Positions 11,473 to 22,581 of a DNA stretch of 31,127 nt are shown one piece after another (the stretch's first letter is position 1; each line of letters starts with the position of its first letter). The notes under the pieces were generated by a model that was not told the DNA's origin, did no database searches, and saw nothing but the letters and a program-made list of their open reading frames with translations. This DNA is from a bacterium (GTDB taxonomy: Bacteria > JAMCPX01): assembly GCA_021792615.1 (NCBI GenBank), contig JAJYUJ010000033.1, forward strand, positions 1 through 31,127, given 5' to 3'. The translations under genes were made by a program, and so were the position numbers.

Positions 11473-12969
11473 TTAACCGAGTACCTCATAAACCCTGAGC
11501 TGGTTTTCTTTGCCTTTCACGGTGATCTCTCCGACGAGCTTAGTATTAAACGGTGATTGAATAAACCTGTTTGTCTCGCTTGAAATGAGTATCTGGTTGG
11601 GGGCTGCTTTTGCCTGCAGCCTCGAGGACACATTAACACAATTGCCGATGATGGTATATTCGAGCCTCTGTGGAGAGCCTATCATGATGCCCGTCACCGC
11701 GCCCGTATCCATGCCTATTCTCAGCGATATGGGTGTCCCGCTGTTCCCGGTCCTTACCCATTCAAGCAGTTTTATGGCAGACCGTATGGCCCGGTCGGTA
11801 TCATCCGGATGAGAAAGAGGGGTACCGAATACAGCCATAAATCCATCTCCGAGAAACTTATTTACGGACCCGCCCTGAGATAGTACGATCGTGGTGGCTT
11901 GTTCGAAGAATGCCCTGAGAAGTTTTGCTATATCTTTGGATTCATTTTTTTCCGTCAGCGATGTAAACCCTACAATATCCGCAAAAAGGATCGTGGTCCT
12001 GTCAGCAGTCTGTACATTCCACATCTCCGAAGGATTGTTTTTAATCATGCCGAGCAGGCCTGAAACAGCTTCAATAGGTACGAACCTTTTGATCTGATCC
12101 GACAGGACCATTTCATCGGTAATCTTTTTGGTGAGACGCTCGTGAGCAACATTGAGTGCGAGAAGGTTCGCCATAATGGTCACAAAATTAAGCTGATCCT
12201 CATTGAAGGGAGTCTGACTGACCCTGCGGTCCGCATAGAGCGCCCCGTAGACACGATCTTTTTCCCAGATAGGGGCACAGAGTGCGGAATTTATACCCAT
12301 AGTCTGAATCGTACGGTCTCCGGCAAATCTCTTATCTGCAGCGGCATTTTGTACAAGCAACCCCGCCCTGTTTTTTATAGACCGGCCGAGTATGTTGGAA
12401 CTTATGCCACGGATGCCGGGTCCGTCCTTTCCGCTGGCGGCCTCCAGCACAAGTTCGCCGGTTTTTTCGTCGATAAGTACGATTGCCCCGTACTCGGCCC
12501 TTATAGCATCACAAACCGATTGCAGGATCTTTGCAGATAAGCTGTTCAGGCCGGTTGCATAGATACTTTCCCGCGCCGCTGAAAACAGCACGTCCAGATA
12601 GATGTTGTTAAGAAGCGACGGCGACCCTGCTATGGTATCAAGTTCTTGTGCGGAAACCTCCTTGATCGTCGTAAGATCATTGTCATGAAAAATAAGCACA
12701 ACGCTGCCTGCCGTGATTTCATCATTGTCATACAGCCTTGTTCTTCCCTGGACTTTTTTATTGTTCAGGATTGTGCCGTTGGAACTGCCGTTGTCATAAA
12801 GATAGTATCCGTCCAGTTCCTTTTTTATGACAAAGTGGTTCCTTGAAACACTCGCATCAAGAAGGGGCAGGTCATTGGACGGAAGCCTGCCTGCGCTGAC
12901 ACTTTCCCTGTCTATTTTGTAAACCGTTTCATTCGGGCTGCCTTTATATCTATAAGACAGTAAGGGCAT
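11473..12969 (-). CDS. FHA-GAF-class III adenylate cyclase
   Basis: A 498-residue soluble sensor-cyclase. Residues 1-98 form an FHA phosphothreonine-binding domain (G27-R28, SRNH at 42-45, NGSSNGT at 60-66). Residues 120-290 form a GAF ligand-sensing domain. Residues 320-498 form a class III nucleotide cyclase domain. The metal-binding aspartates are D331 (FADIVGFT) and D375 (FLGDGFMAVFG). The purine-selecting pair is K371 and T439 (EYTIIG), the Lys/Thr signature of class IIIb adenylate cyclases. N446 and R450 (VNVSSR) are the transition-state residues. All key residues are present, so it is predicted to be active and to make cAMP. The start is nine bases after the pentapeptide gene stop, with no clear ribosome site, suggesting coupling. 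Confidence 0.92.
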   Translation of the reverse strand: MPLLSYRYKGSPNETVYKIDRESVSAGRLPSNDLPLLDASVSRNHFVIKKELDGYYLYDNGSSNGTILNNKKVQGRTRLYDNDEITAGSVVLIFHDNDLTTIKEVSAQELDTIAGSPSLLNNIYLDVLFSAARESIYATGLNSLSAKILQSVCDAIRAEYGAIVLIDEKTGELVLEAASGKDGPGIRGISSNILGRSIKNRAGLLVQNAAADKRFAGDRTIQTMGINSALCAPIWEKDRVYGALYADRRVSQTPFNEDQLNFVTIMANLLALNVAHERLTKKITDEMVLSDQIKRFVPIEAVSGLLGMIKNNPSEMWNVQTADRTTILFADIVGFTSLTEKNESKDIAKLLRAFFEQATTIVLSQGGSVNKFLGDGFMAVFGTPLSHPDDTDRAIRSAIKLLEWVRTGNSGTPISLRIGMDTGAVTGIMIGSPQRLEYTIIGNCVNVSSRLQAKAAPNQILISSETNRFIQSPFNTKLVGEITVKGKENQLRVYEVLG

Positions 12970-12978
12970 CTGATGCGA

Positions 12979-14439
12979 TCAAATAAAGATGAATGCGTAC
13001 AGGAGAGCGTTTACCACTGACAGGGCAATCGCACTCTTGAGATATCCGCCGCCTTCGCTCAAAGGGTTGCGCCGCAAGAAAAGAAGGAGGAGCGACGACA
13101 TAAGCAAGCTCAGCACGGTTAACAGTATCCCTGCCTGAAACACAGGATAAACGACCCACGGGGGAATGAGCCCGGCAAAAACATACCGTAACCCCGTGAG
13201 TATGAAGACCAGCGGTCCTGCGATAATGCTTATGAGCGGAAGCAGGATGAGGGAATGCAGGGTTTTGATTGATGGTTCGGGGATGGTCATGGGCTTGCCG
13301 CATTTCTCGCAGTGCTGTTTTGTGTCCTGCTGGTAACCGCACCACGGACATACCGATTTAATGGTCCTTCTTGTGATCTGGGTCTGGGTCAGTGTTGCAT
13401 TATGAAGAGACACGCCTTCCATCTCGGATTCTCTCATGTCCGCATTGCTCAGATTCGCACTGCTGAAATCACCGGAAGAGAAGACGCTGTTGTTCATGAT
13501 TGCACCGGACAGGTTCGCTTCTTTGAATACGGCTTTTGTTGCCATCGTGTGGCTGAGAATGACGCCTTTCATGTTTGCCATGGAGAAGTTCGTGCTGGTG
13601 CACGATGCGTGCGACATACTTGACCTCTCTAAGATTGAACCCGTCAGAATGGCATTGTCCAATTTTGCGTAGTCGAGGATCGCCCCTGAAATCTGGGCAT
13701 AGTCCAGTTGGGAACTTTCGAGGTTTGCACCCCTTAAATTCGTGTCTGTAAGATTGATATTGTTCATCTGTGCCGACGTGATGACAGCTTCGGACATGTC
13801 GAGCCCCGACAGGTTGAGATTGCGCAAGTCACTCGAAGGCATAAAGACCTTTCTCAGCGAGACACCGGCAAGGAGCGCCTTTTGTATGTTCGTACCCTTT
13901 AAGGTTGCCCCGGAAAAATCCGTGCCCCGAAGGTCGGATTCCGAAAGATCGGATGATTCTATATTTGCGTTCACAAAGCTTGATCTATACAGAAGTGCCT
14001 TGTTTAACTTGATACCCGGTGCCCTGACAGCATCAAAGGTTGCCTCTTTTCCGTTTATACCGGTAAGTACAGCCCTTCCCATCTGGCATCCGGTAAAATT
14101 GGTTTCCTCAAGTGTTGCCGCAGACAGATTTGATTCTTGCAGGTTTGAGCCGGAGAAGTCCGCGTCTCTCGCGTCGGTCTTTGTCAGATTTGCCCCCTGC
14201 AGGTTTGCGGATTTGAGTGATGCCCCGATGAGTTTTGCCTCCTGTATCACACAGAATGACAGGTCGGCATTATCGAGCACGGCATCCGAGAGGTCGGCCC
14301 CGGACAGATCTGAATTTCTCATCTTGATACCTTTAAGATTAAGCCCCCTCAGATTCTCTCCCGACAGCTTTATACTCGAAAGCTCCATGGCTTTATCTTT
14401 GTGGTCGGCTATGTACTTAATTAATTCATCCCGTGTCAT
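12979..14439 (-). CDS. pentapeptide-repeat protein with zinc ribbon and C-terminal membrane helices
   Basis: A 486-residue protein. Residues about 23-350 consist of A(D/N)LXX-type pentapeptide repeats (LSGADL, LQGANL, LRGTDFSGATL, LRGANL and many others), predicted to form a long right-handed quadrilateral beta-helix of roughly 16 coils. A zinc ribbon follows, with C364, C367, C377 and C380 (CPWCGY ... CEKCGKPM). Three hydrophobic segments, about 394-417, 429-455 and 466-486, would anchor the protein in the inner membrane with the repeat rod in the cytoplasm (no signal peptide). It sits nine bases upstream of the FHA-GAF cyclase gene, so it may be a scaffold or partner for that enzyme. Upstream is an A/T-rich region shared with the divergent + strand genes. 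The function is not established. Confidence 0.85.
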   Translation of the reverse strand: MTRDELIKYIADHKDKAMELSSIKLSGENLRGLNLKGIKMRNSDLSGADLSDAVLDNADLSFCVIQEAKLIGASLKSANLQGANLTKTDARDADFSGSNLQESNLSAATLEETNFTGCQMGRAVLTGINGKEATFDAVRAPGIKLNKALLYRSSFVNANIESSDLSESDLRGTDFSGATLKGTNIQKALLAGVSLRKVFMPSSDLRNLNLSGLDMSEAVITSAQMNNINLTDTNLRGANLESSQLDYAQISGAILDYAKLDNAILTGSILERSSMSHASCTSTNFSMANMKGVILSHTMATKAVFKEANLSGAIMNNSVFSSGDFSSANLSNADMRESEMEGVSLHNATLTQTQITRRTIKSVCPWCGYQQDTKQHCEKCGKPMTIPEPSIKTLHSLILLPLISIIAGPLVFILTGLRYVFAGLIPPWVVYPVFQAGILLTVLSLLMSSLLLLFLRRNPLSEGGGYLKSAIALSVVNALLYAFIFI

Positions 14440-14498
14440 TAGCGCTTTTCTATATAAGAATTATGTAAAAAATGCAAGCACAATAGAAAAAAACTACA

Positions 14499-14518
14499 AT
14501 CTGTAAGTGATCTGTAAG
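14499..14518 (+). promoter_or_regulatory. Pho-box-like 11-bp-period direct repeat
   Basis: CTGTAAG at 14501-14507 is repeated at 14512-14518 with a four-base spacer; including flanks, ATCTGTAAG occurs at 14499 and 14510. The 7-4-7 layout, one helical turn apart, is that of sites for PhoB/OmpR-type response regulators (the Pho box is two CTGTCAT-like units). A -10-like TATGAA at 14530-14535 lies 11 bases downstream, the distance seen in Pho promoters. It may control the + strand export locus, the divergent pentapeptide operon, or both. Confidence 0.4.
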
Positions 14519-14647: not shown

Positions 14648-15781
14648 ATGGCTACAAAAAGTATAATAATTAAATCATTTCTGATGTTATTTTTGTTATT
14701 TTTGCCGCTGAGCAGCGTATCGTATGGACAACAGTATGTTAGCCAGGGTGCGTGGGCAGTTGGATTGGTGCGCGGGCTTGGCTGGGAGGCAAAGGGTATT
14801 CCGCAGCAGGCAACATTAACGGATTATTTCGACCTTCTTTCAGGCAGGAACTTTATAACGGTCAATCTGGGGGATTACAAAACAAGACTCGGTGTTTTAC
14901 CGGACACCATAACATACAATGTCAGTGTGCAGCACAGCGGCAGGTACCGACTTATAGCCAATGTCTATGGAAACCCGCTTATGTTTACCATCGATAATCA
15001 GCCAACTGCATCCTCCACGCTTTCAAGCGGCTGGAATTATGAAGATATGGGTGAATTTATCTTAAAGAGAGGCGTTCATAAGCTCAGTATTACGATACCG
15101 CAGGGCGGTTCTATCAATGCACTTTATTTGAGTTCGTATGCCGAGAATGCAATCCAGCCGGAAGGCGGATGGGTGGCAAACAAAGCCCTGGATTACGGGA
15201 CAGAGGCAAGGACCATGGCTATGGCAACGGATGTGGCCGGTCAGCTGCCGGTCCGTGCACAGATACCGTCAGCGATAAGGGCTGGTCAGAATGTGCGTGA
15301 ATTTGTCTTTCAGGCCCCGGCAGACCCCGTCGTAAACTTTGCCATGGCATTACCCGGTCCATCAAAAGGATATGTCATGGTGGATAATTCAATCGTTCTT
15401 TCTTATGATACATCTGCAGAGCGGTCATTCCAGATAAGCTTGAAGGCTATCAACCTATCTCAGGGGCAGCACATAGCATACCTGAAGGTTTTATCCGGCC
15501 AGATGCCCGATTCTTTTATTATAAACCAGCATAACGATACGCCGGGTGCTTGCGTGTCGCTGATGAGAACAAAGGGATTTACTATGGGGGCTGCGAATCA
15601 ATACGTTCCTCTGAATATTGCCCAGGCATCGTTGGGAAATATTATCGCGCAGGTAACGAAAAAGTCACCCACGGCACTTTCTCTGGAAGCAATGCCGGTT
15701 GTCAAAGAAACAGAGCTTCCATCTCAGAGGGCACTCAGAACATACAACGAATCTATAAGCCCGATGAGGCCTTTTGAATAA
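14648..15781 (+). CDS. exported protein of unknown function with two similar beta-rich modules
   Basis: I do not recognise the family. Starting at ATG 14648 (GAAGGTGG just upstream) gives 377 residues with a clean signal peptide, MATKSIIIKSFLMLFLLFLP to SVSYGQ, cleaved before QYVSQG. Longer in-frame starts exist at 14627 (ATG) and 14591 (TTG) but spoil the signal peptide. The mature protein looks duplicated. Each half begins with a tryptophan motif (QGAWAVGLVRGLGWEAKG and EGGWVANKALDYGTEARTM) and an AT dipeptide about six to ten residues later. Each continues into a beta-sandwich-like stretch ending in a hydrophobic run (RGVHKLSITIPQGGSINALY and QGQHIAYLKVLSGQMPDSFI). These resemble carbohydrate-binding folds in texture. 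It heads an exopolysaccharide export locus, so a periplasmic or surface glycan-binding role is plausible but unproven. Confidence 0.7.
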   Translation: MATKSIIIKSFLMLFLLFLPLSSVSYGQQYVSQGAWAVGLVRGLGWEAKGIPQQATLTDYFDLLSGRNFITVNLGDYKTRLGVLPDTITYNVSVQHSGRYRLIANVYGNPLMFTIDNQPTASSTLSSGWNYEDMGEFILKRGVHKLSITIPQGGSINALYLSSYAENAIQPEGGWVANKALDYGTEARTMAMATDVAGQLPVRAQIPSAIRAGQNVREFVFQAPADPVVNFAMALPGPSKGYVMVDNSIVLSYDTSAERSFQISLKAINLSQGQHIAYLKVLSGQMPDSFIINQHNDTPGACVSLMRTKGFTMGAANQYVPLNIAQASLGNIIAQVTKKSPTALSLEAMPVVKETELPSQRALRTYNESISPMRPFE

Positions 15782-15787
15782 ATAAAA

Positions 15788-16342
15788 ATGAAGCGCAATA
15801 TATTTTTCAGCATTTTTATAGCCGGGATAGTATTGACTTCACAGGGTGCAGCCAGGGCAGATTCTCTTGTTTATACTGCGCCGGGCTTTTCTATTGTCCG
15901 GGGAACAACGATCGCAGTTGCACCTTTCCAGAATCTTACCCAGGCTCAATATGCAGGTGACAGGGTTTCGAATTATATTGCAACTACGTTTGCCCGGAGC
16001 AGGATGTTCAGGGTCTATGGCGAGAACCTGTTTCAGATCCGCATGCCGTACGCAGGATTAAATCCGGCACTCCCGGTCGATAGATCGATAGCTATGAAGA
16101 TCGGGCAGCCGGCAGGCTTAAACTACGTTATATTCGGCAGCGTCGTAGAATACGGGTATCAGCTTACCCCGCAGGGGATCAGAACGCTTCCCATTGTCGG
16201 GGTTGATATAAGAATAGTGGATATTCATTCGGGAAGGATCGTGTTTGCGGGCTCTTTTGCAAAAGAAGGCGCGTCCGGCGGTACCCTGGATGGCGTTGCA
16301 AAGGAAGTTGTCAGAGAATTTTACGAAAAGGCAGTCAAGTGA
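15788..16342 (+). CDS. exported CsgG/TolB-like small protein
   Basis: A 184-residue protein with a signal peptide (MKRNIFFSIFIAGIVLTSQG, cleavage likely after ARA). The mature part has the pattern of CsgG/FlgO/TolB-N-type domains: TTIAVAPFQNLTQAQYAGDR, a helix with VSNYIATTFARS, then NYVIFGSVVEYGY and VDIRIVDIHSGRIVFAGSF. There is no lipobox cysteine, unlike the next gene. It starts six bases after the previous stop with a poor ribosome site, and its stop overlaps the start of the lipoprotein gene (GTGA). It is clearly related in layout to that lipoprotein, so the two may form a periplasmic or outer-membrane-associated pair. Its role in polysaccharide export is inferred from context. Confidence 0.75.
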   Translation: MKRNIFFSIFIAGIVLTSQGAARADSLVYTAPGFSIVRGTTIAVAPFQNLTQAQYAGDRVSNYIATTFARSRMFRVYGENLFQIRMPYAGLNPALPVDRSIAMKIGQPAGLNYVIFGSVVEYGYQLTPQGIRTLPIVGVDIRIVDIHSGRIVFAGSFAKEGASGGTLDGVAKEVVREFYEKAVK

Positions 16343-17364
16343 AGATAAGCAGCAGATTGATTATTCTTTGCTTCCTGTTTATAGCCGGCTGTTCGTCCAC
16401 GGTCTCATCCAACTTTCTTATGCCCGGCGCAAGCGTTGACAATATAAGCTGTATCGCAGTGCTTCCGTTAAAAAACAAAACACAGGACCCCAATGCCGGC
16501 AATGTAGTGGCGGACATTCTTTCCATAGACCTTATGAAGCACCAGGATTTCAACGTGATGGACAGGATGGAGGTTGAAAGGGTATTACGGGAACGGGACA
16601 TCTATACACCGGACGGAATATCCCCGGATGATGCCGCAGGTATGGGTATTATATTGGGTGTTCAGGCTGTTTTCGCAGGTGAGGTGACGCAATATTACTA
16701 TAAACCCTCAAGCCTTCCTACAGAGGGCGCGGTTCCTACCATTCAGCTAAGCCTTTCCCTCATTGATGCGGCAACCGGTCAGGTTATATGGACAGGCAAT
16801 GGTACATTTACCCCCACGGGCCTGCTTGCAGAGGGAACGCCTCCTATTACAGGTGTTGCACAGGAAGGCATAGAAGCATTGCTTGATTCTTTCTATAACG
16901 GCATAAATCCGAGGGCTCAGGCGTCATCGAGGGTGTGCTGGTATGATCCGAACACCATATTCTCCCGGGTCATCGTCGCACGGCCTCAGATACCGCAAAC
17001 ACCCAGGCCTGCAGCACAAGCACCGCAGCGCCGGGCTCAGCCTGCCCCGCAGCAGCAACAGCGCGCGGCTGCTGTGGAAAGGCCTCAGGTCCAGATGCCG
17101 CCGGCTAAGGTATCTATCTTGAATGCAAGCGGTAATCCGAGGGCATCCATGATGGTCGGAATGGCACTCATCAAAGATAAGATTAACGTTGTCAATGTGA
17201 GTACGGAAAAATATTCGAAACCCAGGACTATAGTTTATTACAGGGCAAATTATTATGGCCAGGCCTTGCATATAGCAAGGTTGCTCAGGAAGATGCCGCA
17301 GCTTGTCGAATCACCAACATACAAATGGGACATCACGGTTATGATCGGCAAGGATCTAAAATAG
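16339..17364 (+). CDS. lipoprotein with CsgG-like domain and C-terminal LytR_C-like domain
   Basis: A 341-residue lipoprotein. The lipobox IAGC puts the lipidated cysteine at C18, followed by SS, which favours outer-membrane sorting. Residues about 25-195 form a CsgG/TolB-N-like domain (ISCIAVLPLKNKTQDPNAGN, DRMEVERVLRERDIY, LGVQAVFAGEVTQYY, LSLIDAATGQVIWTG). A Pro/Gln/Ala-rich linker spans about 212-253. Residues about 255-341 match the LytR_C pattern (VSILNASGNPRA, an ALIKDK helix, TIVYYRANYYGQALHIARLL, WDITVMIGKDLK). LytR_C domains are usually found on LytR-CpsA-Psr or cell-envelope proteins, so this fusion is unusual. It starts at GTG overlapping the previous stop. It is probably an outer-membrane assembly or gating factor for the exporter encoded next to it; that role is inferred. 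Confidence 0.8.
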   Translation: MKISSRLIILCFLFIAGCSSTVSSNFLMPGASVDNISCIAVLPLKNKTQDPNAGNVVADILSIDLMKHQDFNVMDRMEVERVLRERDIYTPDGISPDDAAGMGIILGVQAVFAGEVTQYYYKPSSLPTEGAVPTIQLSLSLIDAATGQVIWTGNGTFTPTGLLAEGTPPITGVAQEGIEALLDSFYNGINPRAQASSRVCWYDPNTIFSRVIVARPQIPQTPRPAAQAPQRRAQPAPQQQQRAAAVERPQVQMPPAKVSILNASGNPRASMMVGMALIKDKINVVNVSTEKYSKPRTIVYYRANYYGQALHIARLLRKMPQLVESPTYKWDITVMIGKDLK

Positions 17365-17382: not shown

Positions 17383-18531
17383 ATGTCAAAAACCAAAAAT
17401 ATGATTTTTGTTTTATTATCAGGACTCGTTCTGCTTGTAATAGCCAGTAAGGCAGTATATGCACAGCAGGAAAACAAAAGATTGTTCAAAGCTTATCTGT
17501 CGTTAAGCGATGCTTATGATACGAATGTTTTAAGAAGCGGCGGACAATCAGCCAATAAAAGTGATAATATCATTTATATCCAGCCATCCCTTGCCGTTCT
17601 CCTGCCGTTTCGGTTCGGAGCTGATTTTGATCTCGATTATACCTTTACCTATCTGAATTATAGCAAGTATACGCAATACAATACGTATTATAATAATTTG
17701 AATGTCTCCCTGAACTTCTATCCGGTAAAAAATCTTATGTTCGGCATACTGGATTCTTACACCATGGTTCCTATATCCCCGCAACTGCCTACCTACGCGG
17801 TTACCAACATAACGCAGGCCAACTATCTGAATCCTTACATTGCCTACAAATTCGTTGTAGCTCCGCGGTTTGATGTTGATGCGCGGTATGATTTCATCTA
17901 TGCAAGCTTTCCCGGTTCCCTGGGCATAGGATACTATGTCAATGAACCCCAGATCAATGCCGATATTATTGCAAGCCGCCTGATAAAGATAAAACCCGGG
18001 TTCAGGTACATATCCCAGACCTTTACATCATCAACGCTGGGTACGATCAACCAGTCCCAGCCTTACCTGGAACTCGATATAGCCCATGGCTCGCAATTGT
18101 CCTTCACGGGAAGTTATAGCTATGTTTCCTTCGGGTTCAAAAACAGTTCGCAATCCGGGAACCTATACCTTGCAAAGCTTACCTACAAACCCGACGACCG
18201 GCTGACGTCGGACCTGTATGCCGACGGCTCAAAATCGTTTGATATTTTTGGAAGGCTGTATACTCTGTTTGAAGCAGGACTGGATGCCCGGTACCATATA
18301 ACCCGTCGGCTGGTTTCGAATATCGAAGCAAAATATGTAAAGTTAAAATACGCGGGAGAAAATTACTATACAGACGCATCGGGCGGTGATATTGGATTAA
18401 GCTATAAGTTTATCCCATGGTCGGAAATATTCGCGACATACTATTATTATGATGAAAAACCAGAATCTTCAAATGTTACCGGTTACCAGGACTCAAGGAT
18501 ACTTGTCGGTATCCGTGCCGGATTGCTGTAG
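17383..18531 (+). CDS. outer-membrane beta-barrel protein of an exopolysaccharide exporter
   Basis: A 382-residue protein with a signal peptide (MSKTKNMIFVLLSGLVLLVI to VYAQ). It has a long alternating aromatic/hydrophobic pattern typical of transmembrane beta-strands (YTFTYLNYSKYTQYNTYY, VDARYDFIYASF, LDIAHGSQLSFTGSYSYVSF, RYHITRRLVSNIEAKYVKL, IFATYYYYDEK), and ends IRAGLL. It resembles the putative beta-barrel porin type (PF10082-like) that accompanies OPX proteins lacking their own outer-membrane segment. AGGTAGGGGT precedes the ATG by six bases. The reading frame overlaps the following OPX gene, so the two are made together. The assignment rests on strand pattern and context rather than on a sharp motif. 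Confidence 0.75.
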   Translation: MSKTKNMIFVLLSGLVLLVIASKAVYAQQENKRLFKAYLSLSDAYDTNVLRSGGQSANKSDNIIYIQPSLAVLLPFRFGADFDLDYTFTYLNYSKYTQYNTYYNNLNVSLNFYPVKNLMFGILDSYTMVPISPQLPTYAVTNITQANYLNPYIAYKFVVAPRFDVDARYDFIYASFPGSLGIGYYVNEPQINADIIASRLIKIKPGFRYISQTFTSSTLGTINQSQPYLELDIAHGSQLSFTGSYSYVSFGFKNSSQSGNLYLAKLTYKPDDRLTSDLYADGSKSFDIFGRLYTLFEAGLDARYHITRRLVSNIEAKYVKLKYAGENYYTDASGGDIGLSYKFIPWSEIFATYYYYDEKPESSNVTGYQDSRILVGIRAGLL

Positions 18532-19381
18532 GCTCATACTTTTCGTAGCTGTTCTCTTCCTTTTACACTCTTCCGTGCTTCATGCGCAGGGAGAGTATCT
18601 TGTCGGTCCTGGTGATGTACTGAGTATAGAGGTTTTCGGGGAAAAAGACCTCTCCGGGAATGTTACTGTTTCTCAGGACGGGAAGATAAAAAATATCCTG
18701 CTCGGTGATGTCATGGTTGAGGGACTTACCACAGGGCAGATAGAAGAGCTGCTGACAAAGGAGTTGGGTAAGGAGTATCTTGTCGACCCAAAGGTTACGG
18801 TTTCCATTCAGGAATACAAAAGCCATAAGGTTTATGTGCTCGGCGAGGTGGAAAAACCGGGGACGTACGCTCTTACGACGCAGAGCAGATTGCTCGATAT
18901 TCTCCTCAAGGCAGGAGGCCCGACATCGAATGCAGGGGACAATGTGTCTATTCTCCGGCGTGAAGGCGGCACCCTCGATCACATAAAGGTGGACATAACA
19001 CGGCTTTTTGTCGATGGAGATCTCTCCCAGAATATACCGGTAAAAGACGGTGACATAATCTATGTCTCACGCGAGGAGAAGGGAAATATTACCAGCAGGT
19101 TCTATGAGAAAAAACTCAACCTTTATTATGTTGTCGGTGAGGTTAAAGCTCCGGGTGCGTACGAACTGCATGAGGGGTATACCGTGTTAAACGCCATTCT
19201 GCAGGCAGGCGGGTTTACGGATTACTCCAAGAAAAACGGGGTAATGCTTGTCCGGTATGAAAATGGAGTGAGAAAGGTTTACCATTTGAAAATGGGCGAT
19301 GTGATGGATAAAGGCGAATTGTCGAAAGATATGCACGTCCGTGCGTCCGATCTTATCATTGTGCCCGAGAGTTTATTCTAA
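18449..19381 (+). CDS. polysaccharide export (OPX, Wza-like) protein
   Basis: Up to 310 residues. Poly_export domain around 48-125 (YLVGPGDVLSIEVFGE, VSQDGKI, LVDPKVTVSIQEYKS), then two SLBB domains: about 130-215 (VYVLGEVEKPGTYAL, LLKAGGPTSNAG) and about 225-305 (YYVVGEVKAPGAYEL, ILQAGGFTDYSKKN). It ends at IIVPESLF, with no C-terminal amphipathic helix like the one Wza uses to cross the outer membrane. There is no lipobox cysteine at the signal peptide end (LLHSSVLHAQ). The longest frame overlaps the beta-barrel gene by 83 bases. A shorter start at TTG 18503 or GTG 18515 gives a better signal peptide and only 17-29 bases of overlap. It forms the periplasmic channel for polymer export, presumably docked on the separate barrel. 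Confidence 0.92.
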   Translation: MMKNQNLQMLPVTRTQGYLSVSVPDCCRLILFVAVLFLLHSSVLHAQGEYLVGPGDVLSIEVFGEKDLSGNVTVSQDGKIKNILLGDVMVEGLTTGQIEELLTKELGKEYLVDPKVTVSIQEYKSHKVYVLGEVEKPGTYALTTQSRLLDILLKAGGPTSNAGDNVSILRREGGTLDHIKVDITRLFVDGDLSQNIPVKDGDIIYVSREEKGNITSRFYEKKLNLYYVVGEVKAPGAYELHEGYTVLNAILQAGGFTDYSKKNGVMLVRYENGVRKVYHLKMGDVMDKGELSKDMHVRASDLIIVPESLF

Positions 19382-19382
19382 G

Positions 19383-21233
19383 ATGCCCCAGCAGCTATCA
19401 GACACAAAGAGCGATTTAAAATACTATATTGATCTGCTGCTCCAGCGCCGTTTACTGATTTTCGTAGTATTCTTCGTTACCCTTTTGATGGTCATGATCG
19501 ATTATATCGTGACCCCTCCTGCCTATACCGCAAGGGCGAAGCTCCTGATAGAACCGGAACACTATACCAACCTCAATACCGGAAATTCCGGACAGGAACC
19601 TCCGATGTTTTATTTTCAAACACAGGTTGAACTCATAAAGAGTGAGCCCGTCTTGTCTCTTGCCGCAGCGAGTTTGGGGGTACAAAAGGGGACACGGGAT
19701 TTTCAGAACATGGTCTCGAGACTGAAAAGAAACGTCTCGGTCGAGCGCATCCCGGATTCAAGGATATTGACCATATCGGTAAAGTCTCACAACCCGCTCT
19801 TTGCTGTGCATGCGGCAAACGCGATAATAGACAGTTATATAAAATTTCTCAATGAACAAAAAAGAAAGCGTATCAGCAATATCACCCTGTGGCTGCAGGG
19901 GGAACTCACCTCCCTGAAGAACAAGGTCGAGACATCGGAAATGGCCCTGATAAAGTACGTTGAACAGCAGGAGACGACAAGCAACAACGACTCTGTCATG
20001 TTCCTCGGCGATCCGTCGGACAATGCCGGGACAAAGGCCTTGTCCGAGCTTGAAACAAAATATATAACACTGCAGATAGAGCTTACCAACATGATGCAAA
20101 AGTATAAAGACAAATATCCTCTCGTCGTGCAATTGAAAAATGACATAGCTGCAATCAATATAAGAATAAACATGATGAAGCAGGCAATGATTGAGGCGAA
20201 CAAAAAGCGGATCAAGTATATTATGCTGAGCAGGGATGCGGATCTGAGCAAGGATCTGTACAGTATGCTGACCAAGGAGTTGAAAGAAGTGAATGTTTTC
20301 GGTGAGATCGGTTATCCCACTGCCACCATCATAGAACATGCAAGCGAGCCGGGAAGAAGGTCGGACCGGGGGCTCGTATTCTGGTTTTTATTCGGCATAT
20401 TTATATCCATGATAACCGGTGTTGCTTCCGCGTTTATTGCGGATCAAATTGACAACAGTATAAAGGGTGAGTCGGATATCGAGAGATTTATAAAACATCC
20501 TATTATCGGCGCATTGCCCTATCTCGATGAATTGAAAGGGAAGGAGCCTCACCGGCTGTTGGGTATACTGAATAGTGCCTCGTCTCAGGTTTATGTGGAA
20601 ATGCTGAGGCTGTTGAGAACGAATTTGAAATATTCTTTTATAGCAAAGGCAGGCAAGGTATTGCTGGTCACATCCACGGGAGAAAATGAGGGGAAAACCA
20701 CGTTATCGGCAAGTCTCGCGTACATCCTTTCCATTACAGGGGCAAAGGTCCTGCTTATGGATGCGGATGTAAAGAAACCCAATATACATAAGCTATTCAA
20801 GAGCGAACAGACCCCGGGTTATACGGAACTCCTCATCGACGACAAACTCGACAGCGCTGCTATCATAAAAGACAGCGGCTATGATAACCTTTATTACATG
20901 ACGGCAGGCAGGCAGCCTCCGGATTTTGCAGAGCTGCTCGATTCACCGAAATCAAAATCCCTGCTGGAATCATTCAAGGATAAATTCGACTATATCATCG
21001 TAGATTCGCCTCCTATCGGTATAATCTCGGATGCCGCAATACTATCGTCCCTTGTAGATGGTGTACTGTTCGTTGTAAAGGCCAACGGCTATCCAAGGGA
21101 ACATGTTTTAAGAAGCATTAAATCCCTGAGCTCTGTTAATGCAAAAATTACCGGTATTGTTCTCACCCATCTTGACAGGGGCAAGGGCTATTATTACAGG
21201 AGTTATTACAGCAAAGGTTATTATCGCGAATAA
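19383..21233 (+). CDS. polysaccharide co-polymerase / tyrosine autokinase (Wzc/BY-kinase type)
   Basis: A 616-residue inner-membrane protein from ATG 19383, one base after the OPX stop; an upstream in-frame start at 19341 adds 14 residues unlike the family. Wzz-type N-terminal domain with TM1 at about 23-45 and TM2 at about 333-356, and periplasmic coiled coils between. The cytoplasmic BY-kinase domain has Walker A STGENEGKT (K438), Walker A' LLMDADVKKP (D460, D462) and Walker B IIVDSPP (D541). The C-terminal tyrosine cluster DRGKGYYYRSYYSKGYYRE (598-616) holds seven tyrosines for autophosphorylation. It controls chain length and export through the OPX protein. No cognate phosphatase or glycosyltransferase is present nearby. 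Confidence 0.95.
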   Translation: MPQQLSDTKSDLKYYIDLLLQRRLLIFVVFFVTLLMVMIDYIVTPPAYTARAKLLIEPEHYTNLNTGNSGQEPPMFYFQTQVELIKSEPVLSLAAASLGVQKGTRDFQNMVSRLKRNVSVERIPDSRILTISVKSHNPLFAVHAANAIIDSYIKFLNEQKRKRISNITLWLQGELTSLKNKVETSEMALIKYVEQQETTSNNDSVMFLGDPSDNAGTKALSELETKYITLQIELTNMMQKYKDKYPLVVQLKNDIAAINIRINMMKQAMIEANKKRIKYIMLSRDADLSKDLYSMLTKELKEVNVFGEIGYPTATIIEHASEPGRRSDRGLVFWFLFGIFISMITGVASAFIADQIDNSIKGESDIERFIKHPIIGALPYLDELKGKEPHRLLGILNSASSQVYVEMLRLLRTNLKYSFIAKAGKVLLVTSTGENEGKTTLSASLAYILSITGAKVLLMDADVKKPNIHKLFKSEQTPGYTELLIDDKLDSAAIIKDSGYDNLYYMTAGRQPPDFAELLDSPKSKSLLESFKDKFDYIIVDSPPIGIISDAAILSSLVDGVLFVVKANGYPREHVLRSIKSLSSVNAKITGIVLTHLDRGKGYYYRSYYSKGYYRE

Positions 21234-21352: not shown

Positions 21353-22189
21353 ATGGACAAAAAGGAAGAAAAAGATAGAAACATCTTCGAGAGAGCGGAA
21401 GAGTTCTTGCAGGTTTTTAAAAAGGGTGCGGAATTTACGCAGGAACTTTTAAAAACCAATGAACAGCTGAGATACAGGATATTGCAGCTTGAGGAAGAAG
21501 GTATGTCCTTAAAAACGAACCCGGTCCTCCCTGATAAGCAGTATGAAGAACTTGCAAAGCAGATTGAGGCATTAAAAGAGGAGCGGGAAGAAATTACGAA
21601 GCGGATCAAAGAGATCGAGAACGAAAACAAGGATTTTGCCATACGGTATGTCGAAGTAGAAGAAGAAAACAATAACCTCGCGAACCTGTATATTGCAAGC
21701 TATCAGCTTCACTCCACCCTTGATTTCAAGGAAGTGCTGCAGATTATACTCGAAATTATAATAAATTTAATCGGTGCGGAAGAGTTCGGCATTTTCCTGC
21801 TCGACGAGAAAACACACGAATTAAAAATAATGGCATCCGAAGGTATTGATGAGACGCAGGTGCCGTCGATAAATATGGGAGTAGGGACAATCGGAAGGGT
21901 GGCAAAGAACGGCGAACCGTACTTCATGGAGGACATGTCCGATTCATCTAAGACAGATTGGCTCAACCCTATGGTTGCAATACCGCTGAAGATAAAGGAA
22001 CACGTTATCGGCGTCATTGTTATCTACCGGCTGTTGCAGCAGAAAAAAAACTTTACACCCCTTGACCATGAACTCTTTACCCTGCTCGCGGGCCATGCTG
22101 CGACAGCTATTTTCAGTTCAAAACTTTATTCGGAATCCGAGAGGAAATTATCCACGATTCAGGGTTTCATAGACCTGCTGACGAAGTAG
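21353..22189 (+). CDS. coiled-coil GAF-domain sensor protein
   Basis: A 278-residue cytosolic protein. Residues about 1-110 are charged heptad-like coiled coil (RAEEFLQVFKKGAEF, LAKQIEALKEEREEITKRIK, YVEVEEENNNLANLY). Residues about 115-265 are a GAF domain (HSTLDFKEVLQIILEIIINL, FGIFLLDEKTHELKIMASEG, VGTIGRVAKNGEPYFMEDM, MVAIPLKIKEHVIGVIVIYR). It has no output domain of its own. It lies 14 bases before a CheY-like receiver, so the pair may form a small sensing module. The long coiled coil could dimerise it or dock it to another protein. Ligand unknown. Confidence 0.85.
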   Translation: MDKKEEKDRNIFERAEEFLQVFKKGAEFTQELLKTNEQLRYRILQLEEEGMSLKTNPVLPDKQYEELAKQIEALKEEREEITKRIKEIENENKDFAIRYVEVEEENNNLANLYIASYQLHSTLDFKEVLQIILEIIINLIGAEEFGIFLLDEKTHELKIMASEGIDETQVPSINMGVGTIGRVAKNGEPYFMEDMSDSSKTDWLNPMVAIPLKIKEHVIGVIVIYRLLQQKKNFTPLDHELFTLLAGHAATAIFSSKLYSESERKLSTIQGFIDLLTK

Positions 22190-22203
22190 ATAGGAAAAAT
22201 GTT

Positions 22204-22581
22204 ATGGAAGAATACAAAGTTCTGATTGTAGAAGATTCCCCCACGATGCGGCAGCTCATAGCCTTTTCGTTAAAAAGACTGAAAAACATTAAGATCGTGG
22301 AAGCGAGCGATGGAGTAGACGGTCTCAAGAAGCTCTCGCAGGACGCTTTTCAATTAATCATTACGGACATCAATATGCCCGTCATGGACGGCTTAAAGCT
22401 TGTAAGTCTTATACGGAAAGACGCGGTTTATAAGACAGTCCCGATATTTATCATCACGACAGAGGGCGGACAGGAAGACAGAGAACGCGCGATGGCATTA
22501 GGAGCCAACGCCTATATTACAAAGCCCATATCAGGACCGCAGGTCCTCGAGATGGTAAAAAGCCACCTGAATATCAAATAA
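22204..22581 (+). CDS. CheY-like single-domain response regulator
   Basis: A 125-residue receiver domain with no output domain. The acidic pocket is E10-D11, the phosphorylation site D55 (LIITDINMPVMDG), the switch T85/T86 (FIITTEGGQ), and the conserved lysine K107 (ITKPIS). All residues needed for phosphorylation are present. It follows the GAF protein by 14 bases and is convergent with ruvB, with only 11 bases between their stops. No histidine kinase is in the window. It probably acts by protein contact, as in chemotaxis or other phosphorelays; the partner could be the GAF coiled-coil protein or a distant kinase. Confidence 0.93.
   Translation: MEEYKVLIVEDSPTMRQLIAFSLKRLKNIKIVEASDGVDGLKKLSQDAFQLIITDINMPVMDGLKLVSLIRKDAVYKTVPIFIITTEGGQEDRERAMALGANAYITKPISGPQVLEMVKSHLNIK

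Follow-up and report, generated by a model that had tools for sequence, protein, structure and literature searches.

Two overlapping genes for CsgG-superfamily proteins stand directly before the beta-barrel, OPX and kinase genes of a polysaccharide exporter locus in an uncultured bacterium, which raises the question of what such proteins might do in an exporter of this kind. The window, i.e. the whole stretch of DNA analysed, comprises 31,127 nucleotides (contig JAJYUJ010000033.1 of assembly GCA_021792615.1). The original prediction had not counted such proteins among the standard components of Wza/Wzc systems and had proposed an extra outer-membrane ring or a polymer-anchoring device. The first view needed correction: Pel (synthase) systems, with their PelC ring, already provide a precedent for ring proteins in sugar export (PMC12141448). 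An extra ring or anchoring device is still what we infer, in the form set out below.

The exporter locus and its additional exported proteins

The first gene of the overlapping pair, P1 (15788–16342, forward strand), encodes an exported PelC-fold protein of 184 amino acids, whose N-terminus looks like a cleavable signal and lacks a lipobox cysteine. The second, P2 (16339–17364, forward strand), encodes a putative lipoprotein of 341 amino acids. The GTG start of P2 and the TGA stop of P1 share the sequence GTGA (16339–16342, forward strand). Coordinates, overlap and position directly before the barrel, OPX and kinase genes were exactly as predicted, and both proteins exceeded the Pfam CsgG cut-off of 20.8 bits (P1: E-value 1.2e-5, 25.1 bits; P2: 1.4e-10, 41.3 bits). 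The N-terminus of P2 contains a lipobox-like motif, LFIAGC (read by eye), with Cys18 as the putative lipidation site (codon 16390–16392, forward strand); Gly17-Cys18 was invariant across 11/11 P2 copies. This site is directly followed by a PelC-fold domain as delimited in the model (residues 19–192; 16393–16914, forward strand; net charge −11). The domain is followed by a Pro/Gln/Ala-rich linker (residues 205–255; 16951–17103, forward strand), predicted to be disordered from pLDDT and composition (11 Gln, 10 Pro and 9 Ala in 51 residues), and by a LytR_C domain (residues 257–339; 17107–17355, forward strand; PF13399, 8.7e-6, 27.0 bits, cut-off 22.2, profile positions 3–85 of 86). Profile matches to CsgG and LytR_C were looked for and both were thus found above cut-off, which bears out the LytR_C-like C terminus and Pro/Gln linker read from the sequence earlier. 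The label 'TolB-like' did not hold, with TolB_N below threshold in P1 and P2 of the window (E-value 0.11).

Among the relatives, CsgG was matched by 11/11 P2 copies and 10/11 P1 copies, and LytR_C by 11/11 P2 copies. P1 and P2 are homologous to each other (hhalign E-value 1.7e-15, 164 columns). Their dN/dS values, in comparisons with unsaturated dS, were 0.05–0.18, similar to those of the neighbouring genes, and P1 and P2 are therefore real genes under purifying selection. None of the curli genes csgA/B/E/F was found among the annotated genes of the window.

P1 is preceded by P0 (14591–15781, forward strand; the true start is probably the ATG at 14648), which encodes an exported protein in which two beta-sandwich domains, similar to carbohydrate-binding modules, are predicted. 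P0 had no Pfam match above cut-off. A weak match to CBM_35 (0.055 in the window) recurred in 5/10 relatives (best 3.9e-4). In the model of a fused homologue, residues 64–158, corresponding to the first sandwich of P0, were CBM6/CBM35-like (2cdp, Z 11.3, 95 aligned). P0 was located directly upstream of P1 wherever the contig extended far enough.

P2 is followed, also on the forward strand, by the gene for an outer-membrane beta-barrel (17383–18531), which matched TIGR03016 (1.1e-6) and just missed the cut-off of BBP2_2 (8.3e-5, 22.0 bits, cut-off 23.7). The next gene encodes a short (class 3) OPX (18449–19381, forward strand; the true start is probably downstream of 18449) and exceeded the TIGR03027 cut-off (192.8 bits, cut-off 180). 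Its domains are Poly_export (5.9e-24) and SLBB alone, with no Wza_C or GfcC part and no lipobox. This short OPX class needs a separate barrel partner (PMC9603273, PMC9601211). The last gene of the cassette encodes a Wzc-type co-polymerase/tyrosine kinase (19341–21233, forward strand; Wzz 5.8e-6; eps_fam TIGR01007 156.4 bits, cut-off 108).

Conservation was assessed in nine species of the phylum of the window (one genome each; one family, four genera). The order P0-P1-P2-barrel-OPX-Wzc was found on one strand in 6/9 genomes (in L067, P0 is cut at the contig start). The contigs of the remaining three end inside the OPX gene (L069), the barrel gene (L068) or P1 (L117), so that none of the nine contradicted the order. 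The barrel gene was present in all eight genomes whose contig extends to it. Exosortase (PF09721) was found in 0/9 genomes, although the OPX exceeds the TIGR03027 cut-off, and an XrtA/PEP-CTERM exopolysaccharide system was rejected on this ground.

Divergent from the cassette, the window encodes a pentapeptide-repeat protein and an FHA-GAF-adenylate/guanylate cyclase protein (11473–14439, reverse strand); the same ORFs lie upstream of P0 in L117. An ORF at 13742–14506 (forward strand) was not accepted as a gene, since it is antisense to the pentapeptide-repeat gene, and the latter probably accounts for its apparent conservation among relatives. Directly after the Wzc gene, a GAF-domain protein and a CheY-like single-domain response regulator are encoded (21353–22581, forward strand), possibly regulating the exporter. 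Elsewhere in the genome of the window, a second, lipobox-like OPX is encoded with a Wzc and a PHP-type phosphatase-like gene (L113:4662–8909, contig G000:C20), with no barrel or ring genes beside this pair. Another tandem pair of CsgG-superfamily genes was located at L114:5286–6866 (contig G000:C28), one of them matching CsgG at 1.7e-34.

The fold of P1 and P2 compared with PelC and CsgG

Though their Pfam name is CsgG, the closest solved relative of P1 and P2 is PelC, as judged from sequence matches and predicted structures. The top PDB sequence match of P1 was PelC (9h80, 4.7e-9), and PelC entries ranked first in a search with the P1 family profile (5.5e-11). The P2 model had pLDDT values mostly of 70–95 over residues 21–190 and of about 25–35 in the linker; its LytR_C part was of low confidence and the fold there was not used, so that the lack of LytR_C rows in the fold search carries no weight. 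With Foldseek, the first 19 rows for this model were all PelC. The model aligned with PelC 5t0z at Z 17.4 (rmsd 3.8, 157 aligned), and VIA-align gave Z 15.4–17.4 for PelC, 11.6 for FlgT and 8.8–10.7 for CsgG. The fold of P1 was taken from a homologue, the P1 half of a natural P0-P1 fusion (L092), the model of which aligned with 5t0z at Z 17.7 (rmsd 2.5, 152 aligned), with Z 17.3–17.7 for PelC and 9.4–11.8 for CsgG. The original CsgG identity stood at the level of the superfamily fold, whereas the closest fold is that of PelC (Z 15–18, versus about 9–12 for CsgG).

PelC is a 12-subunit lipoprotein ring of Pel export, located below the Pel pore (PMC12141448). The P1/P2 fold matches PelC (5t0z, 5t10, 5t11, 9h80) over the whole domain. 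Further likenesses are the lipobox-like Cys of P2, which directly precedes the domain, and the adjoining polysaccharide outer-membrane barrel. In contrast to PelC, there are two distinct subunits instead of one, P1 is apparently not lipidated, P2 adds the linker and LytR_C tail, and the partner is OPX/Wzc instead of PelB with a synthase. Of the PelC motif, E111, Y114 and P122 are retained in 11/11 P1 copies. The D-loop residue Asp119 is replaced by Gln in P1 and by Leu in P2 of the window, and is Asp in 6/11 P1 copies. W149, a membrane-embedded tryptophan of PelC that is essential for assembly (PMC12141448), is missing from every P1 and P2, the column holding A/S/T/V in P1 and S/T/A in P2. Because this tryptophan is absent, neither protein was filed as PelC; at best, they are PelC-like in action. 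A Pel system at this locus was rejected, with PelG (PF16933) above cut-off in 0/9 genomes of the phylum and with OPX and Wzc as neighbours.

With CsgG, the curli secretion channel, the two proteins share the superfamily fold and the Pfam match above cut-off; the difference lies in a structural score below that of PelC and in the strands. The P2 model contains three (residues 110–122, 132–143 and 149–160) of 12–13 residues each with short loops between them, and therefore shows no sign of the CsgG transmembrane hairpins. On this model, the two proteins are unlikely to form a CsgG-like pore in the outer membrane.

Occurrence of the gene order in other lineages and away from OPX genes

A ring-domain profile was searched against 386 genomes and led to a genome (G185, locus L147) of a phylum other than that of the window. 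Its order of P0-like, ring, ring with OmpA, barrel, OPX and Wzc genes is the six-gene order of the window. The P0-like protein carries an extra FecR domain and is related to P0 (blastp 27% over 131 amino acids, E-value 1.2e-8; hhalign 2.8e-7). The second ring protein has a C-terminal OmpA domain (3.5e-8) that departs from the usual motif. The OPX is 38% and the Wzc 30% identical to that of the window; the barrel is TIGR03016-like and not alignable to that of the window by BLASTP. In a further genome of the same phylum as L147 (G386, L150), a P0-like gene precedes two ring genes, after which the contig ends. Outside the lineage of the window, an OPX cassette was thus found at 1/57 ring-gene loci (L147), with one more (L150) cut by the contig end, and the other 55 had no OPX and no contig cut able to hide one directly after a pair. 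Since only L147 of the 57 loci has an OPX, the arrangement is rare, yet it occurs in more than one phylum. The predicted conserved linkage to OPX genes held in 6/9 genomes of the phylum and in L147, and is not general.

A survey of 80 genomes, of which 62 encode an OPX, for Pfam CsgG (PF03783) and OPX (PF02563) within 15 kb on one contig, evaluated by eye, gave no such pair outside the lineage among the matches listed. This survey was too weak because Pfam CsgG misses the G185 genes that were later found with the ring profile, and a claim that the arrangement occurs only in this phylum was dropped after L147 was found.

Ring genes were also located in other surroundings. A single ring gene of G185 is separated by 6 bp from a Wzy_C/TPR gene (L151:5675–8815) in a sugar biosynthesis cluster that includes Wzc. 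Overlapping ring pairs, the second member ending in CarboxypepD_reg and OmpA, were found in G157 and G295 (L144:7844–10008 and L143:2833–5033), adjoined by a DnaK-like gene and with no OPX nearby. Multiheme cytochromes (at least three CxxCH, often 20–42) were encoded within 6 kb of the ring genes at 18/57 loci, among them 14 of the 27 loci with at least two ring genes, both counts being without a null. Such loci were L078, L079, L085, L146, L148, L149, L152, L154, L155, L156, L159, L161, L164, L165, L168 and others. The cytochromes checked with Pfam had Paired_CXXCH arrays, and genes near them encode an NHL-propeller protein (L079, L154, L159) or a PPIase (L161). PelC-like pairs may also be part of a secretion apparatus for extracellular cytochromes.

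In three genomes of the phylum of the window, the module occurs a second time, with P0 and P1 as one reading frame followed by P2 (L066:8052–10594, L074:648–3181, L075:3216–5656). A fourth contains a partial P2 of such a copy (L115). The fusion speaks for a joint action of P0 and P1. No OPX was found beside the second (orphan) copy. The module can therefore exist apart from the exporter, and nothing else argues as strongly against its being obligatory there. We considered whether the orphan copy serves the second OPX/Wzc pair, but the association was not significant: four genomes had both, two had neither, and three, 80–84% complete, had the OPX without a detected orphan copy.

A proposed collar on the exporter barrel and its alternatives

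The position of LytR_C in the window is occupied by OmpA in L147, and by CarboxypepD_reg and OmpA in the ring pairs of G157 and G295. Such replacement of one envelope-associated domain by a different one in an equivalent position suggests that the tail of P2 would serve as a peptidoglycan tether. LytR_C accompanies LCP glycopolymer transferases, and what is reported in the part of the source considered is an interaction with LCP partners, not peptidoglycan binding (PMC11832169). LytR_C domains outside an LCP enzyme are known, and that of P2 differs in being on a putative outer-membrane lipoprotein with a PelC-fold domain.

We hypothesized that P1 and P2 form a PelC-fold periplasmic collar on the exporter barrel, with P2 anchored by its lipid and to the wall and P1 carrying P0, and we rate the chances of this reading as even. 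Computation shows the PelC-like fold, the LytR_C domain, the lipobox-like motif, the conserved six-gene order and the P0-P1 fusion; the oligomer, its place, the peptidoglycan tether, the binding of sugar and a part in export are inferred from these. The subunits would assemble either into a single mixed ring or into two rings stacked on each other at the periplasmic rim, or inner mouth, of the barrel in a composite OPX/beta-barrel/Wzc exporter. The lipid of P2 would hold it in the outer membrane, with the ring domain directly on the membrane, and LytR_C, on its disordered linker of about 50 residues, would reach peptidoglycan or a wall-bound glycan and fix the complex. The non-lipidated P1 would dock on P2 and bring P0. 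Wzc and the soluble periplasmic OPX would hand the polymer to the collar and on to the barrel, and the carbohydrate-binding-like domains of P0 may touch the polymer during this passage. The PelC match, the motif residues retained in P1, the net charge of −11 on the PelC-fold domain of P2, the order conserved in two phyla, the P0-P1 fusion and the barrel-dependent OPX class count for the collar. The absence of W149, the lack of a lipobox in P1, the loss of D119 in P1 of the window, the low confidence of the LytR_C part of the P2 model, the orphan copy without OPX and the other OPX/Wzc pair of the genome without ring genes count against it.

The best placed alternative, in our view unlikely, is that P0-P1-P2 anchor the exported polysaccharide to the surface or wall outside the export path, with LytR_C as adaptor and P0 as a sugar clamp. 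The occurrence of LytR_C with LCP transferases and its binding of LCP partners (PMC11832169) would fit this, as would the likeness of P0 to carbohydrate-binding modules and the presence of the module away from OPX genes. However, a translocon is suggested by the PelC fold and by the fixed site immediately ahead of the barrel and OPX genes in both phyla, and P0 and P1 appear periplasmic, without a surface-exposure signal.

It is less probable still, and rather doubtful, that P1 and P2 are LpoB- or TolB-like regulators of peptidoglycan synthesis or envelope integrity that open the wall locally for the exporter. The superfamily fold is common to these proteins, P2 matched Pfam LpoB above cut-off (4.7e-7), and LytR_C and OmpA are wall-associated types of tail domain. 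The LpoB equivalog (TIGR02722, NCBIfam) was not reached by either protein (P2 27.9 bits, P1 12.8, cut-off 110.55), and LpoB and TolB structures scored Z 8–12, well under the 15–18 for PelC. LpoB has a long linker between the lipid and the globular domain, unlike P2, in which the linker is placed after the globular domain.

A ring pair that landed beside the exporter by chance and was inherited there without functional coupling would agree with the 55 of 57 related loci that lack an OPX. We regard this as very unlikely, as the six-gene order recurs in a second phylum at 25–38% identity and with a different tail domain. A curli-like CsgG-type pore of their own, for protein or polymer, is highly improbable despite the Pfam CsgG matches of both proteins, and was rejected on the P2 model with its short strands and no long transmembrane hairpins, given also that P2 covers just positions 10–104 of the 210-position CsgG profile and scores Z about 9–11 versus 17 for PelC, and that the locus already has a barrel gene.

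The collar reading can be placed beside known systems. The composite OPX/beta-barrel translocon (EpsY-EpsX; class 3 OPX with the Wzp porin; PMC9601211, PMC9603273) likewise has a short OPX, an adjacent barrel and a Wzc-type co-polymerase; the locus in the window differs by the three additional exported proteins P0, P1 and P2, and the word CsgG is absent from the texts of both papers. The nearest layout is that of the group 4 capsule locus of Escherichia coli (gfcABCDE-etp-etk), in which the lipoprotein GfcB, with a LolA-like fold, and the periplasmic GfcC bind each other and the barrel GfcD, the overlapping genes preceding those for OPX (GfcE) and kinase (PMC8592465). The likeness is one of layout, and the gfc system has no PelC fold and no LytR_C. 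We found no description of CsgG/PelC-like proteins in OPX loci in the open-licence literature; every part is known, and the combination was not found there. What is new is a ring pair within an OPX/beta-barrel/Wzc locus without a Pel system.

Several models exist for the passage of the polymer from the soluble class 3 OPX to the barrel (PMC9603273). This hand-over would gain a physical part if a PelC-type collar, tethered to the wall and joined by a sugar-binding partner, were present. Tentatively, with somewhat less than even confidence, we consider the locus to represent a subclass of OPX/beta-barrel exporters with a two-subunit PelC-type collar, an exchangeable peptidoglycan-facing domain and a carbohydrate-binding partner, which would link an outer-membrane end of Pel type with an inner part of Wzc/OPX type. 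A barrel coupled to a lipoprotein ring has been described as unique to Pel secretion (PMC12141448). The locus suggests that a PelC-type ring is used beyond it and, if so, PelC-type rings would not be Pel-specific.
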